Shown here: positions 18,232 through 21,530 of the stretch, piece after piece | Layout of the letters: each line of letters begins with the position of its first letter | Numbering within the stretch: the stretch's first letter is position 1 | NCBI RefSeq assembly: GCF_027622855.1 | Contig: NZ_JAPZVR010000002.1 | Span: 229,035 to 293,034, forward strand | From: Glycomyces algeriensis | GTDB lineage: Bacteria; Actinomycetota; Actinomycetes; Mycobacteriales; Micromonosporaceae | Direction of reading: 5' to 3' | DNA length: 64,000 nucleotides | Made by a program: the position numbers and the translations under genes | The notes under the pieces: model-generated | Databases searched by the model: none | The model's input: only the letters and a program-made list of their open reading frames with translations | What the model was told of the DNA's origin: nothing

Positions 18232-18654
18232 GTGAACGGCGCGGCCCCGGCCGATGTCGAAGCCAATGTCGAAGCCGACGTCGAATGGGCCCGCTACACC
18301 GGCGCCGCCCGCACCCTCGTGCTCCTCAACTCGCTCCTGGCGCTCGTCTTGGAGCTGGCCATGTTCGGCTTCGTCGTCTGGTGGATCCTCACCCTCGACC
18401 TGCCGCTGCTCGCGCGGATCCCGATCGCGATCGCGGCCTTCGGCGCGTTCGCGACCCTGTGGGGGCTGCTGGTCTCGCCCAAGGCCCGCTACCCCCTGCC
18501 GACGGCGGGAACCGTCGCGTTCAAGCTAACCGCGTACGGCGTCAGCGCGCTGGCGCTGTGGGGCGTGGGCTACCCGTTCGCGGCGCTCGCGTTCGCGGTC
18601 CTCGCGGCCGCGAACACCGCTGTCGTCACGTACGTCAGAACCCGAGCAGCCTGA
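18232..18654 (+). CDS. YrdB/DUF2568-like four-TM membrane protein
   Basis: 140 residues from GTG 18232, preceded by AGGAGA at 8 bases; GTG 18208 upstream is less well placed. Four hydrophobic segments with WWILTLDLPLLARIPIAI and LLVSPKARYPLPTAG resemble the DUF2568/YrdB family. The soluble N-terminus has a 12-bp triplicate (18250-18285) giving ADVE-ANVE-ADVE. The 3' end overlaps the convergent DUF4190 gene by 20 bp. Function unknown. Confidence 0.75.
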   Translation: MNGAAPADVEANVEADVEWARYTGAARTLVLLNSLLALVLELAMFGFVVWWILTLDLPLLARIPIAIAAFGAFATLWGLLVSPKARYPLPTAGTVAFKLTAYGVSALALWGVGYPFAALAFAVLAAANTAVVTYVRTRAA

Positions 18655-19835
18655 GCGCCCAGGTGGGGTCGTCGGTCGGGAAGTCGCTGTACCAGTCGCC
18701 GTTCTCGAGCTCGTTCACCGCGGAGCCGACGAGAGCGATCACGAAGATGTAGTACGCGATCCAGGCGATGGTCGCGGCGATCCCGATCCAGCCGAGCACC
18801 ACGCCCGCTGTCGCCATGCCGTCGCCTTGGTCGCCGGTCTCGCGGATCTGGCGCTTCGCGACGGTGCCGAAGATGAGCGCGAGGATGCCGATCGGACTGC
18901 ACACCCCGACGATCCCGCAGATCATCGCCGCGATCGCCATGCCGTTCGTGGGCCGCGGCGGCACGTACGGCGGGTACCCGTAGGGCTGCGGCGGGTACGG
19001 CACGTACGGCGGCTGGGCGGGCTGCTGGTACGGCTGCTGATATGGCTGCTGCGGGTCCTGTGGCTGGGAGTACGGGTCGGGCATGGTCATCGGGGGCACC
19101 TCTCAGAATGAACTGCCACCAGCTTAAGCGCTCGGAGCCAGTGCTCTGTGCCCCCGCGTCCGCCGTCTCGGGCGCGGTGCCTTCACGTAGGGCCCGTTCG
19201 CGGTCGAGGAGTGGCGCGAGCGCCCACCAGGTGAAGACGGCGACGGCCGCGCCGGTGGCCGAGCCCGCGAGCGTGTCGGTCAGCCAGTGGGCGTGCTGCC
19301 AGTTCCTGGAGACGATCATGGCGCAGGTGAGCACGACCGCGACCGGCCACCAGCGCCGCAGGTGCCGGGCCGGGACCAGGAGCACGGCGATGACGACCAC
19401 GAGCGCGGCCATCCGGGAGCTGTGCCCTGACGGGAACGCCCATGAGTCGGTGTCCACCATGATGTCGGCCGGGCGCGGGCGTTCGCCCACGGCCTTGCCC
19501 ACGTCGGTGATGAGCTTCGTCGCCGTGAGCACCGCGCAGGCGTAGACGGCCGAGCGCCAGCGCCGCACGAGGAGCAGCGCGACCACGCCGACCGCGAAGA
19601 GGACCAGGCCGAGCTCGCCCCCGAGGAAGTCGAAGAACGCCGCGACGTGCCACGCCGGGCTGTCGACGGGGCTGCCGACGAGGCCGTTCCACCAGTCGTC
19701 GAGGCCCTGCCACGGCGGCCCGGTCGGGTCGGTGCGCACCCAGATCGCGTCGCCGAGCACCGCGAGCGGCACGGCGATCGAGAGGATCAGGAGCAGCCGC
19801 GACCGCGGGAAGCCGTTGGGAGTCATGCGCGGCAT
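18570..19835 (-). CDS. PAP2-family phosphatase; frame fails to stop at the expected place
   Basis: Membrane phosphatase of the type-2 phosphatidic acid phosphatase superfamily. All three motifs are present: KAVGERPRP (about 114-122), FPSGHSS (about 134-140) and SRNWQHAHWLTD (about 176-187), between five or six TM helices. The protein-like part ends near residue 240 (about position 19120). The frame then stays open to 18570, fully overlapping the DUF4190 gene, where the translation is Arg/Ala-rich shadow. A TTA codon, rare in such GC-rich genomes, lies in this frame at 19127-19125, and one base over is a TAA (19126-19124). A frameshift, real or a sequence error, that ends the gene at 19124 is likely. 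ATG 19835 or 19826 starts it. Confidence 0.75.
   Translation of the reverse strand: MPRMTPNGFPRSRLLLILSIAVPLAVLGDAIWVRTDPTGPPWQGLDDWWNGLVGSPVDSPAWHVAAFFDFLGGELGLVLFAVGVVALLLVRRWRSAVYACAVLTATKLITDVGKAVGERPRPADIMVDTDSWAFPSGHSSRMAALVVVIAVLLVPARHLRRWWPVAVVLTCAMIVSRNWQHAHWLTDTLAGSATGAAVAVFTWWALAPLLDRERALREGTAPETADAGAQSTGSERLSWWQFILRGAPDDHARPVLPATGPAAAISAAVPAARPAAVRAVPAAALRVPAVRAAAAHERHGDRGDDLRDRRGVQSDRHPRAHLRHRREAPDPRDRRPRRRHGDSGRGARLDRDRRDHRLDRVLHLRDRSRRLRGERARERRLVQRLPDRRPHLGAQAARVLTYVTTAVFAAARTANASAANG
18635..19090 (-). CDS. DUF4190 membrane protein with Pro/Tyr/Gln-rich N-terminus
   Basis: 151 residues from ATG 19090, which has GAGAGG 7 bases upstream; the GTG at 19099 overlaps that site. The first 50 residues are low-complexity Pro-Tyr-Gln with PYQQPYQQP repeats. 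They are followed by the DUF4190 double-glycine helix hairpin (NGMAIAAMICGIVGVCSPIGI, then IFGTVAKRQIRETG and a second TM pair). Such proteins are common, abundant and poorly understood in actinomycetes. The upstream PAP2 frame runs through this whole gene in another phase. Confidence 0.85.
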   Translation of the reverse strand: MTMPDPYSQPQDPQQPYQQPYQQPAQPPYVPYPPQPYGYPPYVPPRPTNGMAIAAMICGIVGVCSPIGILALIFGTVAKRQIRETGDQGDGMATAGVVLGWIGIAATIAWIAYYIFVIALVGSAVNELENGDWYSDFPTDDPTWALRLLGF

Positions 19836-19849
19836 CGTATCCGAGCCGC

Positions 19850-21445
19850 TCAGCACCAGGGCCAGTCGCACGGTTCTGAAGTCGAGGGCTCCGGTTCGGG
19901 CTCCTCCGAGGTCGTGGGTTCGGGTTCGGGTTCGGACGAGGTGGGGTCGGGCTCGGGTTCGGGTTCTTCGGTCGTGTCGTCGGGCGAGGGCGAGTCGGAG
20001 GCGCTCGGGGAGGCGGAGGCGTCCTCGCCGCAGCCTTCGGCGTCGGGGTTGGCCTCGCAGTACGCGCTGTCGGGGTCGATCTGGCCGTCGTCGCCGACGA
20101 TGTCCTCGGTGAGGTCCTCGCCTTCGCCGGAGGCGCCGGGCAGCTGCTCGGCGGCGTAGTCGTTCGTCTCGATGGCGGTGTCGATCACACTGCGCCACAG
20201 GGGTACTCCGCCGTCGGCGGCGGCTTCGCCGTTGGCCCAGGCGGCGACGCTCAGCTGCGGTATCGCGCCGACGAACCAGGCCTGGGTGGTCTCCCCGTGG
20301 TAGTCGGCGCCCGCGCCGAAGAAGTCGCGGTCCTCGATCGCCTGGGCTTCGCCGAGGCCGAGGAATTGCAGGTCCTGGGCGGTGGTGTCGGCGAGGGCCT
20401 GGTTGGTGGCGATCTCCTGCCCGGGCGGGACCTCGTCGTCGCCGTCGTCGATGACGCGTTCGATGAAGTGGGTGTCGGCCTGGAGGCCGCCGGCGGCGAT
20501 GGTGGCGTAGACGCCCGCCATGTCGGCGACGCTCACGGGGTAGGTGCCGAAGTCGGCGGCGCTGAGCCCGCCGTACTCCCCTGTGCTCAGGTCGTAGACG
20601 GTGCCTTCGCCGTCGGCGATGGTGTTGAGCCCCATGCGGTGCGCGGTGTCGAGCACGGCCTGGACGCCGTACTTCCCGGCGACGGCGTCCATGGCGGCGG
20701 TCCGCGACTCCTGGACGGCTTCGGCGAGGGTGACGTCGGTCGTCTCGTCGCTCCACCAGGACTCGATGGAGGCGCCGCCTTCGAGCGCGGTGGCGGCGGT
20801 GATCATGTCGAACACGGAGGACGGCGGGTGCGGCGCGGCGGCGCCGACCTGGTCGGTGCCGGAGGGGCCCTCGGCGCCGTAGTAGCAGCGCACCGCGCCC
20901 GTACCGGGTTCGACGGCGACGACGCCGGCCTCGCCGGGGGTCTGCTCGGCGGCCTCTTGGAGGGCCTGGTCGAGGGTGAGGACGACGCGGAGGCCGTCGG
21001 GCCGGGCGGCCTCGTCGTAGAGCTGCTCGGGGGTGAGGCCGTAGCGCGCCTCGAGTTCGGCGTTGATCTGCTCGACCAGCGAGGGGTGCCGGTCGGCGAA
21101 GTCGGCGGGGAGGGCCTGGCCGCCCGCGTAGAGGTAGGCGGCGTCCTCCTGGTCGGCGCCGCCCGCGCCGCCGTCGGGGAGGTTGGCGAGCACGATCGAG
21201 ACGCCGATGGCGATCACGAGGCCCACGGCGCCCGCGACGGCCAGACGGGTCCGATCGAGCCGCAGGAGGCCGTGGAAGACGTGCGGATCGACCTTGATGG
21301 CCGAGAAGACGTTCGTGGCGTCCTTGCGCCGCGAGCCGTTGTAGGACGCGCCGGCGGTTCCGGCTCTGTGGCTGCCGGCCAGCGCGTCCTGCGAGCCGGT
21401 CCGCCTCCGCCGCCCACCGACGCGAGAGGGGTTCCCGTTATTCAC
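19850..21445 (-). CDS. penicillin-binding-protein-like pseudoenzyme with acidic Pro-rich tail
   Basis: 531 residues: cytosolic basic N-terminus, one TM (about 68-88), then a transpeptidase-like domain and no glycosyltransferase. The landmarks of class-A/B PBPs align (VVAVEPGTGAVRCYYG, TAHRMGLN, VSVADMAGVYATIAAGG, QAWFVGAIPQLSVAAW). The three catalytic motifs do not: SxxK is SVFD (210-213), SxN is SRT (247-249), and the KTG position reads HGE (383-385). From about residue 445 it is a Glu-Pro-Ser/Thr repeat tail, ending in CDWPWC. GTG start with AAGG 8 bases upstream. Probably a surface scaffold or sensor rather than an enzyme. Confidence 0.8.
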   Translation of the reverse strand: MNNGNPSRVGGRRRRTGSQDALAGSHRAGTAGASYNGSRRKDATNVFSAIKVDPHVFHGLLRLDRTRLAVAGAVGLVIAIGVSIVLANLPDGGAGGADQEDAAYLYAGGQALPADFADRHPSLVEQINAELEARYGLTPEQLYDEAARPDGLRVVLTLDQALQEAAEQTPGEAGVVAVEPGTGAVRCYYGAEGPSGTDQVGAAAPHPPSSVFDMITAATALEGGASIESWWSDETTDVTLAEAVQESRTAAMDAVAGKYGVQAVLDTAHRMGLNTIADGEGTVYDLSTGEYGGLSAADFGTYPVSVADMAGVYATIAAGGLQADTHFIERVIDDGDDEVPPGQEIATNQALADTTAQDLQFLGLGEAQAIEDRDFFGAGADYHGETTQAWFVGAIPQLSVAAWANGEAAADGGVPLWRSVIDTAIETNDYAAEQLPGASGEGEDLTEDIVGDDGQIDPDSAYCEANPDAEGCGEDASASPSASDSPSPDDTTEEPEPEPDPTSSEPEPEPTTSEEPEPEPSTSEPCDWPWC

Positions 21446-21530
21446 AACACGTACCTTAAAAGGCGCGGACCATGCCCTAACCCCCGGCTCAGCGCTAACT
21501 GCGCGTAACCATCCGATTTGGACATGTAAA

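Follow-up and report, generated by a model that had tools for sequence, protein, structure and literature searches.

The window analysed here, a 64,000-nucleotide stretch of the Glycomyces algeriensis genome, carries a pseudo-transpeptidase gene at 19850..21445 on the minus strand. The gene has a GTG start and encodes a 531-residue protein, as defined from the list of open reading frames and from the orthologues. A first-pass annotation had described it as a homologue of penicillin-binding proteins (PBPs); the coordinates, strand, start and stop given there are confirmed. All features located below lie on the same strand. The gene order pheS-pheT followed by the pseudo-transpeptidase gene is found in 20/20 loci, with pheT directly upstream. 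On its other side, a gene for a PAP2-family phosphatase (18570..19835; PF01569, E 9.1e-17) begins 14 bases past the stop.

The protein starts with a basic region, residues 1-66 (21248..21445), that contains 12 Lys/Arg for 4 Asp/Glu and is predicted from this charge to be cytoplasmic. Its tip, residues 1-17, is the best-conserved part of the region, with a mean pairwise identity of 0.70 as compared to 0.47 for residues 18-66. A single transmembrane helix is indicated by hydropathy at about residues 67-89 (21179..21247). The hydropathy peak is 2.69, for the 19-residue window from residue 68, and no 19-residue window starting outside 55-100 exceeds 1.6. Next comes a conserved hinge, residues 111-165 (20951..21115), located by alignment to full-length active paralogues, where its counterpart links the GT51 glycosyltransferase domain to the transpeptidase (TP) domain. 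The dead TP domain itself spans residues 172-426 (20168..20932). Finally, residues 471-531 (19853..20035) form a Pro/Glu/Ser/Thr tail. The Glu-Pro tail ending in CDWPWC that had been noted at first pass is present in the translation, and the terminal Cys pair is found in 20/20 orthologues. Acidic or proline-rich C-terminal tails with a close Cys pair are also seen in the class A enzymes PBP-A and PBP-B of Glycomyces and in loci L042, L047 and L060.

The TP domain was assigned by several comparisons. A Pfam search gives a match to PF00905 (Transpeptidase) over residues 175-346, with 29.1 bits and an E-value of 7.4e-7, above the curated cut-off of 22.1. Search of solved structures identified PBP1A 5crf, at 6.5e-10 with the single sequence and at 1.7e-21 with a profile built from the 20 orthologues. 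This is the best solved relative by profile, but its active-site residues are lost in the window protein. We take 5crf to be M. tuberculosis PonA1 and part of an active enzyme. As class A comparators, we used Glycomyces PBP-A (G000:C12, about 596.3-599.2 kb) and PBP-B (G000:C24). The TP domain aligns with that of PBP-A with a profile-profile (hhalign) probability of 100 and 45% identity over 239 columns. An AlphaFold model was computed from five sequences, those of the window and of its close relatives in Glycomyces luteolus, G. niveus, Glycomyces sp. YM15 and G. harbinensis (L037-L040). It has a mean pLDDT of 37.1 and a pTM of 0.28. Viral sequences were scanned for additional relatives that would deepen the alignment used for structure prediction, and none was found in these scans. 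Because the model is of low confidence, an intact TP fold is predicted from sequence.

Catalysis by PBPs requires the Ser and Lys of SxxK, as well as the SxN and KTG motifs. The reference for these motifs was a set of 10 active PBP-A sequences of Glycomyces, which carry them intact in 10/10 cases. In the alignment, SVFD (residues 210-213, 20807..20818) pairs with STFK, and SRT (residues 247-249, 20699..20707) with SKN or SRN, in agreement with the first-pass annotation. HGE, proposed there as the replacement of KTG, is misplaced. It falls, in MAFFT as in hhalign, in a shortened loop after the KTG-equivalent strand. The actual equivalent of KTG is AGA (residues 378-380, 20306..20314): both MAFFT and hhalign, with a probability of 100, align DRDFFGAGADY to DRPLTGKTGTW of the active paralogue.

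These losses are common to all 20 orthologues, as expected if the motif changes seen at first pass are conserved in relatives. At the aligned positions, none of the 20 has an intact SxxK, SxN or KTG. The SxxK Lys (213) is replaced by Asp in 20/20 sequences, and Thr211, next to the nucleophile, by Val in 20/20. The nucleophile position 210 is Ser in 18/20 and Ala in 2/20. The SxN Asn (249) is lost in 20/20, with eight different residues at that position. The KTG Lys (378) is hydrophobic throughout (Val 10, Leu 5, Ala 3, Ile 1, Phe 1), and the strand reads AGA, VGA, VAA, IGA, LSG, LAG or FSG. In six orthologues (L021-L026), LSG, LAG or FSG at this place is accompanied by Trp382, as in active enzymes; this state may be an intermediate between KTG-TW and VAA-DY. 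Intact motifs elsewhere in the protein would argue against a dead domain, and none is conserved across the 20 orthologues. SxxK-like strings occur in only 2/20 (two in the cytoplasmic tail of the window protein, one in L021) and SxN-like strings in 3/20 (window, L021, L023); a KTG string is found nowhere in the 20 proteins.

The window protein also lacks GT51, a point that the first-pass annotation had overlooked: no match to PF00912 is obtained in Pfam at E-values up to 1. When the full-length protein is aligned with the active PBP-A and PBP-B and with L042, a class A PBP from another genus (genome G034), the corresponding gap sits between the transmembrane helix and the hinge. GT51 is found elsewhere, with 5-6 matches in each of the 22 Glycomyces genomes. 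Thus, the hinge, the single transmembrane helix and the Cys-containing tail resemble those of Glycomyces class A PBPs, but PBP-A and PBP-B keep GT51, SxxK, SxN and KTG whereas the window protein has none of the four. By its domains and motifs, it would therefore no longer count as a class A PBP. The hallmark of class B PBPs is an N-terminal dimerisation/pedestal domain (PF03717) together with an active TP domain. No Pfam match to such an N-terminal domain is found in the window protein, and its TP motifs are absent. The same full-length alignment shows that several TP-domain loops, including active-site loops, are shorter than in active PBPs. Because of this shortening, some of the PBP surfaces are altered too.

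In a 44-row tree of TP domains, all 20 dead sequences fall into a single clade with a support of 100/100. The clade is sister to a set in which class A PBPs of Glycomyces are grouped with those of two other genera (G033 and G034). This places the descent of the window protein among class A PBPs. The stem of the clade is long, with 0.92 changes per column, which makes its exact parent unsure.

All 20 orthologue frames are open and free of internal stops. Pairwise codon-model fits, which used base frequencies by codon position, were made for eight orthologue pairs hand-chosen from the 190 possible. For the TP core, omega is 0.017-0.105 in 7/8 pairs; the remaining pair (G012-G018) did not converge and lies outside this range. 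Omega = 1 is rejected with likelihood ratios of 68-116 in the seven fitted pairs. For the same eight pairs, the TP domain of active PBP-A gives 0.048-0.129, and pheT and argC give 0.033-0.066 and 0.035-0.068. The omegas being comparable, the dead domain is constrained about as much as the live one. It is not tighter overall, since amino-acid identity of the dead core is above that of the active paralogue in three pairs, equal in three and below in two. Nei-Gojobori dN/dS ratios, calculated for 16 pairs, were set aside. They range from 0.23 to 0.82 over the whole protein and from 0.25 to 0.89 over the TP core, and exceed 1 in places, for instance in the N-terminal region; given the strong GC bias we took them as inflated and used the codon-model fit instead. 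With catalytic residues lost in all orthologues, and omega well below 1, the protein would qualify as a pseudoenzyme. The initial description of a kept but catalytically dead PBP is borne out by both the shared losses and the purifying selection on the TP core.

Conservation is uneven along the protein. The most constant of the measured stretches is residues 393-406, which contain nearly all of VGAIPQLSVAAW, with a mean pairwise identity of 0.90. Residues 172-235, around the former SxxK helix, reach 0.76 and residues 301-332 reach 0.73. Overall, the measured TP-domain segments range from 0.57 to 0.90 and the tail is at 0.52. Among the residues that are fixed in the dead family and different in the active one are V211, D213, A251, V304, T355 and F376; C187, also different in the active family, is found in 19/20 dead orthologues.

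Conservation at the DNA level was observed at the start of the gene. Upstream alignment of the 20 loci reveals a conserved block across the start codon, GGTCCGCGCCTTTTAAGGTACG..GTG (21420..21470). Within codons 2-10, identical residues are encoded by identical codons in 1073 of 1186 comparisons; for the other measured segments the fraction is 0.58-0.81. TCT is used 23 times across the 20 genes, 17 times as codon 7. TAAGGT, just upstream of GTG, could possibly be the -10 element of a leaderless promoter, and the block may alternatively be a control element of the start region. A scan for standard sigma-70 promoters and terminators found nothing. A shared regulon was considered and is unsupported: the 23-base pattern of the block has a single match in the genome, even with up to 3 mismatches allowed.

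Of the 22 Glycomyces genomes, 20 carry an orthologue. For one of the two others, G011, pheT is not found in the assembly, so that absence of the gene there is uninformative. In G017, PAP2 comes directly after pheT, and both the pseudo-transpeptidase gene and the conserved start block are absent between them. A pheT tree, in which the G017 row covers 552 of 836 residues, places this genome among gene-bearing species, with supports of 97/93 for its group of four and 93/81 for the next fork. The absence therefore corresponds to a loss, and the gene is not always essential. Co-loss with PBP-A was rejected, because a PBP-A-like gene is present in G017. It is cut at a contig end, has a GT51 match and is 62.6% identical to residues 10-426 of PBP-A. 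As PAP2 and this PBP-A-like gene both remain in G017, neither depends on the pseudo-transpeptidase gene there.

The search for relatives was extended to the GTDB family, where 61 genomes (58 non-Glycomyces and 3 Glycomyces) were sampled evenly out of a larger group and at most 24 candidates were scored in each, and to 147 other genomes of the class, with at most 9 candidates each. In this non-exhaustive search, no dead homologue devoid of GT51 was seen outside Glycomyces among the family and class loci inspected. Among these loci, the best matches in the family are either class A PBPs or long frames that reach 500 aa or more. Two of them, L051 and L057, have no visible GT51 signature but carry SxN and KTG; L061 yielded no PBP frame. 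Motifs are intact in the four loci from the class (L102-L105).

The PAP2 gene is co-directional and downstream of the pseudo-transpeptidase gene in 19/20 loci, and in 10 of them its frame can begin no more than 65 bases past the stop. In 9/20 loci (L076-L078, L080-L082, L089, L091, L092), the two genes are separated by one for a small membrane protein whose start is rich in Pro and Gln; it is absent from the window, and the one that was tested, from L076, is a DUF4190 protein. Further downstream are a histidine kinase and response regulator pair (19/20 loci) and argC (20/20). At the corresponding stretch of G033 and G034, neither the pseudo-transpeptidase gene nor PAP2 was found. In the window, the PAP2 frame spans a whole DUF4190 gene (18635-19099, minus strand) that lies in another frame, without meeting a stop, and in several relatives it ends about 720-780 bases past the pseudo-transpeptidase stop.

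That selection has kept the protein, with its TP core and cytoplasmic tip conserved, suggests a binding role. Our preferred reading, to which we give a probability of about 0.6, is that the protein is a genus-specific pseudo-transpeptidase, retained because it partners the cell-wall synthesis machinery without acting as an enzyme. In this scenario, a class A PBP copy would have come to lie after pheT in an ancestor of the sampled Glycomyces. GT51 and the TP catalytic residues would then have been lost, and the protein retained for a non-enzymatic job. The ectodomain would still fold as a transpeptidase and bind cell-wall synthases through its PBP surfaces, while the cytoplasmic tip would tie the protein to an inner organiser. 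In this way, it could recruit, space or regulate active PBPs. Of the roles suggested by the first-pass annotation, a scaffold with a putative partner is the one that fits best; a beta-lactam sensor of the acylation type is very unlikely, the SxxK Lys being lost in 20/20 orthologues.

There are precedents for a PBP serving structurally without catalysis. The catalytically inactive B. subtilis PBP2B (S309A) supports division structurally (PMC5656894), and C. difficile SpoVD S311A and PBP3 are further cases of a non-catalytic role (PMC12713402). PBP2B S309A and SpoVD S311A are laboratory point mutants of class B enzymes, whereas here the loss is natural and affects a class A derivative. Non-catalytic roles have thus been probed with engineered dead mutants. 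In Glycomyces, a dead PBP devoid of GT51 has been fixed by nature across 20/22 sampled species and is under selection; because of this, its partners and phenotype would report on the structural role alone. Within the part of the open-licence literature covered, titles and abstract openings name no natural dead PBP and no Glycomyces PBP.

A different use of the TP fold would be that of a non-covalent receptor. The remodelled cleft, with Asp213 in a new site, would bind a ligand, be it lipid II, a peptidoglycan stem peptide or some other molecule, without performing chemistry on it, and signal through the membrane. Asp213 and Val211 are indeed invariant in 20/20 sequences whereas the former nucleophile varies, residue 248 is always basic (Arg 18, His 2), and the kinase and regulator pair lies downstream in 19/20 loci. 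However, residue 248 is also basic in the 10 active PBP-A rows and is hence inherited, the kinase and regulator match the general HisKA_3 and LuxR-type families, and a variable KTG-equivalent strand flanked by short loops is unlike a retained ligand pocket. We consider such a receptor unlikely. The beta-lactam receptors BlaR1 and MecR1 are membrane proteins whose outer domain resembles PBPs. In BlaR1, sensing relies on acylation, and the protein carries a metalloprotease domain (PMC9834060). The retention of Ser210 in 18/20 orthologues could similarly point to a covalent beta-lactam sensor, a decoy or a residual PBP in which slow acylation persists. Yet the Lys residues of SxxK and KTG are replaced in 20/20 and Ser210 itself becomes Ala in 2/20. 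Moreover, unlike in BlaR1/MecR1, neither an acylatable SxxK nor a metalloprotease or other signalling domain was found in the window protein (Pfam for the domains), which makes this possibility very unlikely.

The protein might instead be a passive wall-spanning spacer, with the TP remnant as a mere stable folded base and the work done by the Pro/Glu tail, including the Cys pair at its end, and by the cytoplasmic tip. The two C-terminal Cys and the tip are conserved, as this idea would predict, but conservation is higher in the measured TP-domain segments (0.57-0.90) than in the tail (0.52). Class A PBPs in the genus and in the family have similar tails, so that the Cys-pair tail is probably inherited, and we regard a spacer as quite improbable. 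As for a decaying pseudogene or a recent gene remnant, the loss in G017 could be taken in its favour. Open frames in 20/20 orthologues, an omega far under 1 in the seven fitted pairs and a start region conserved at the DNA level leave it hardly any likelihood.

The non-enzymatic partner could be further specified as a dedicated adaptor that would join three elements in Glycomyces: an inner organiser of the pole or septum, the active class A PBPs and a phosphatase of the carrier lipid. This extended version is doubtful as it stands, and two of its links, docking of the tip and coupling to PAP2, are treated as leads only. More speculatively, the tip might dock via an SRxxR(R/K)-like motif. GpsB is the Firmicute homologue of actinobacterial DivIVA. 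GpsB binds this motif and docks PBPs (PMC6335420). SRxxR(R/K) is found in the first 60 residues of 10/20 orthologues where shuffles give 0.55 expected, but these ten are related by descent. The window protein has SRVGGRR instead, and the motif lies about 55 residues from the transmembrane helix in the orthologues that have it. Shared descent and distance from the membrane weaken the lead. Equally speculative, the PAP2 phosphatase may be coupled to the dead protein and recycle undecaprenyl pyrophosphate. In E. coli, PgpB binds and is coupled to PBP1B, but it does not bind PBP1A (PMC6053597); such coupling is therefore not general. Polar class A PBPs of Corynebacterium have a partner, CofA (PMC8262863).

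Other PBPs of the family have altered TP motifs. In Glycomyces, L109 (G000:C17:19500-23500) and L111-L117 keep GT51 and have TAFN, TSFN or TAFS in place of SxxK, in 8/8 genomes inspected; the entire protein was read for L109 and the KTG region for L109 and L112. GT51-keeping, TP-degenerate class A PBPs were also found in other genera of the family (L041, L045, L058, L118). They share altered TP motifs with the window protein but, having retained the glycosyltransferase domain, may still polymerise glycan. Loss of TP activity in class A PBPs thus looks recurrent in the family, which hints at repeated repurposing of these proteins. In L047, SSFK is still there and SxN and KTG were not found. L043, from another genus of the family, is TP-degenerate with GT51 kept and still has KTG.
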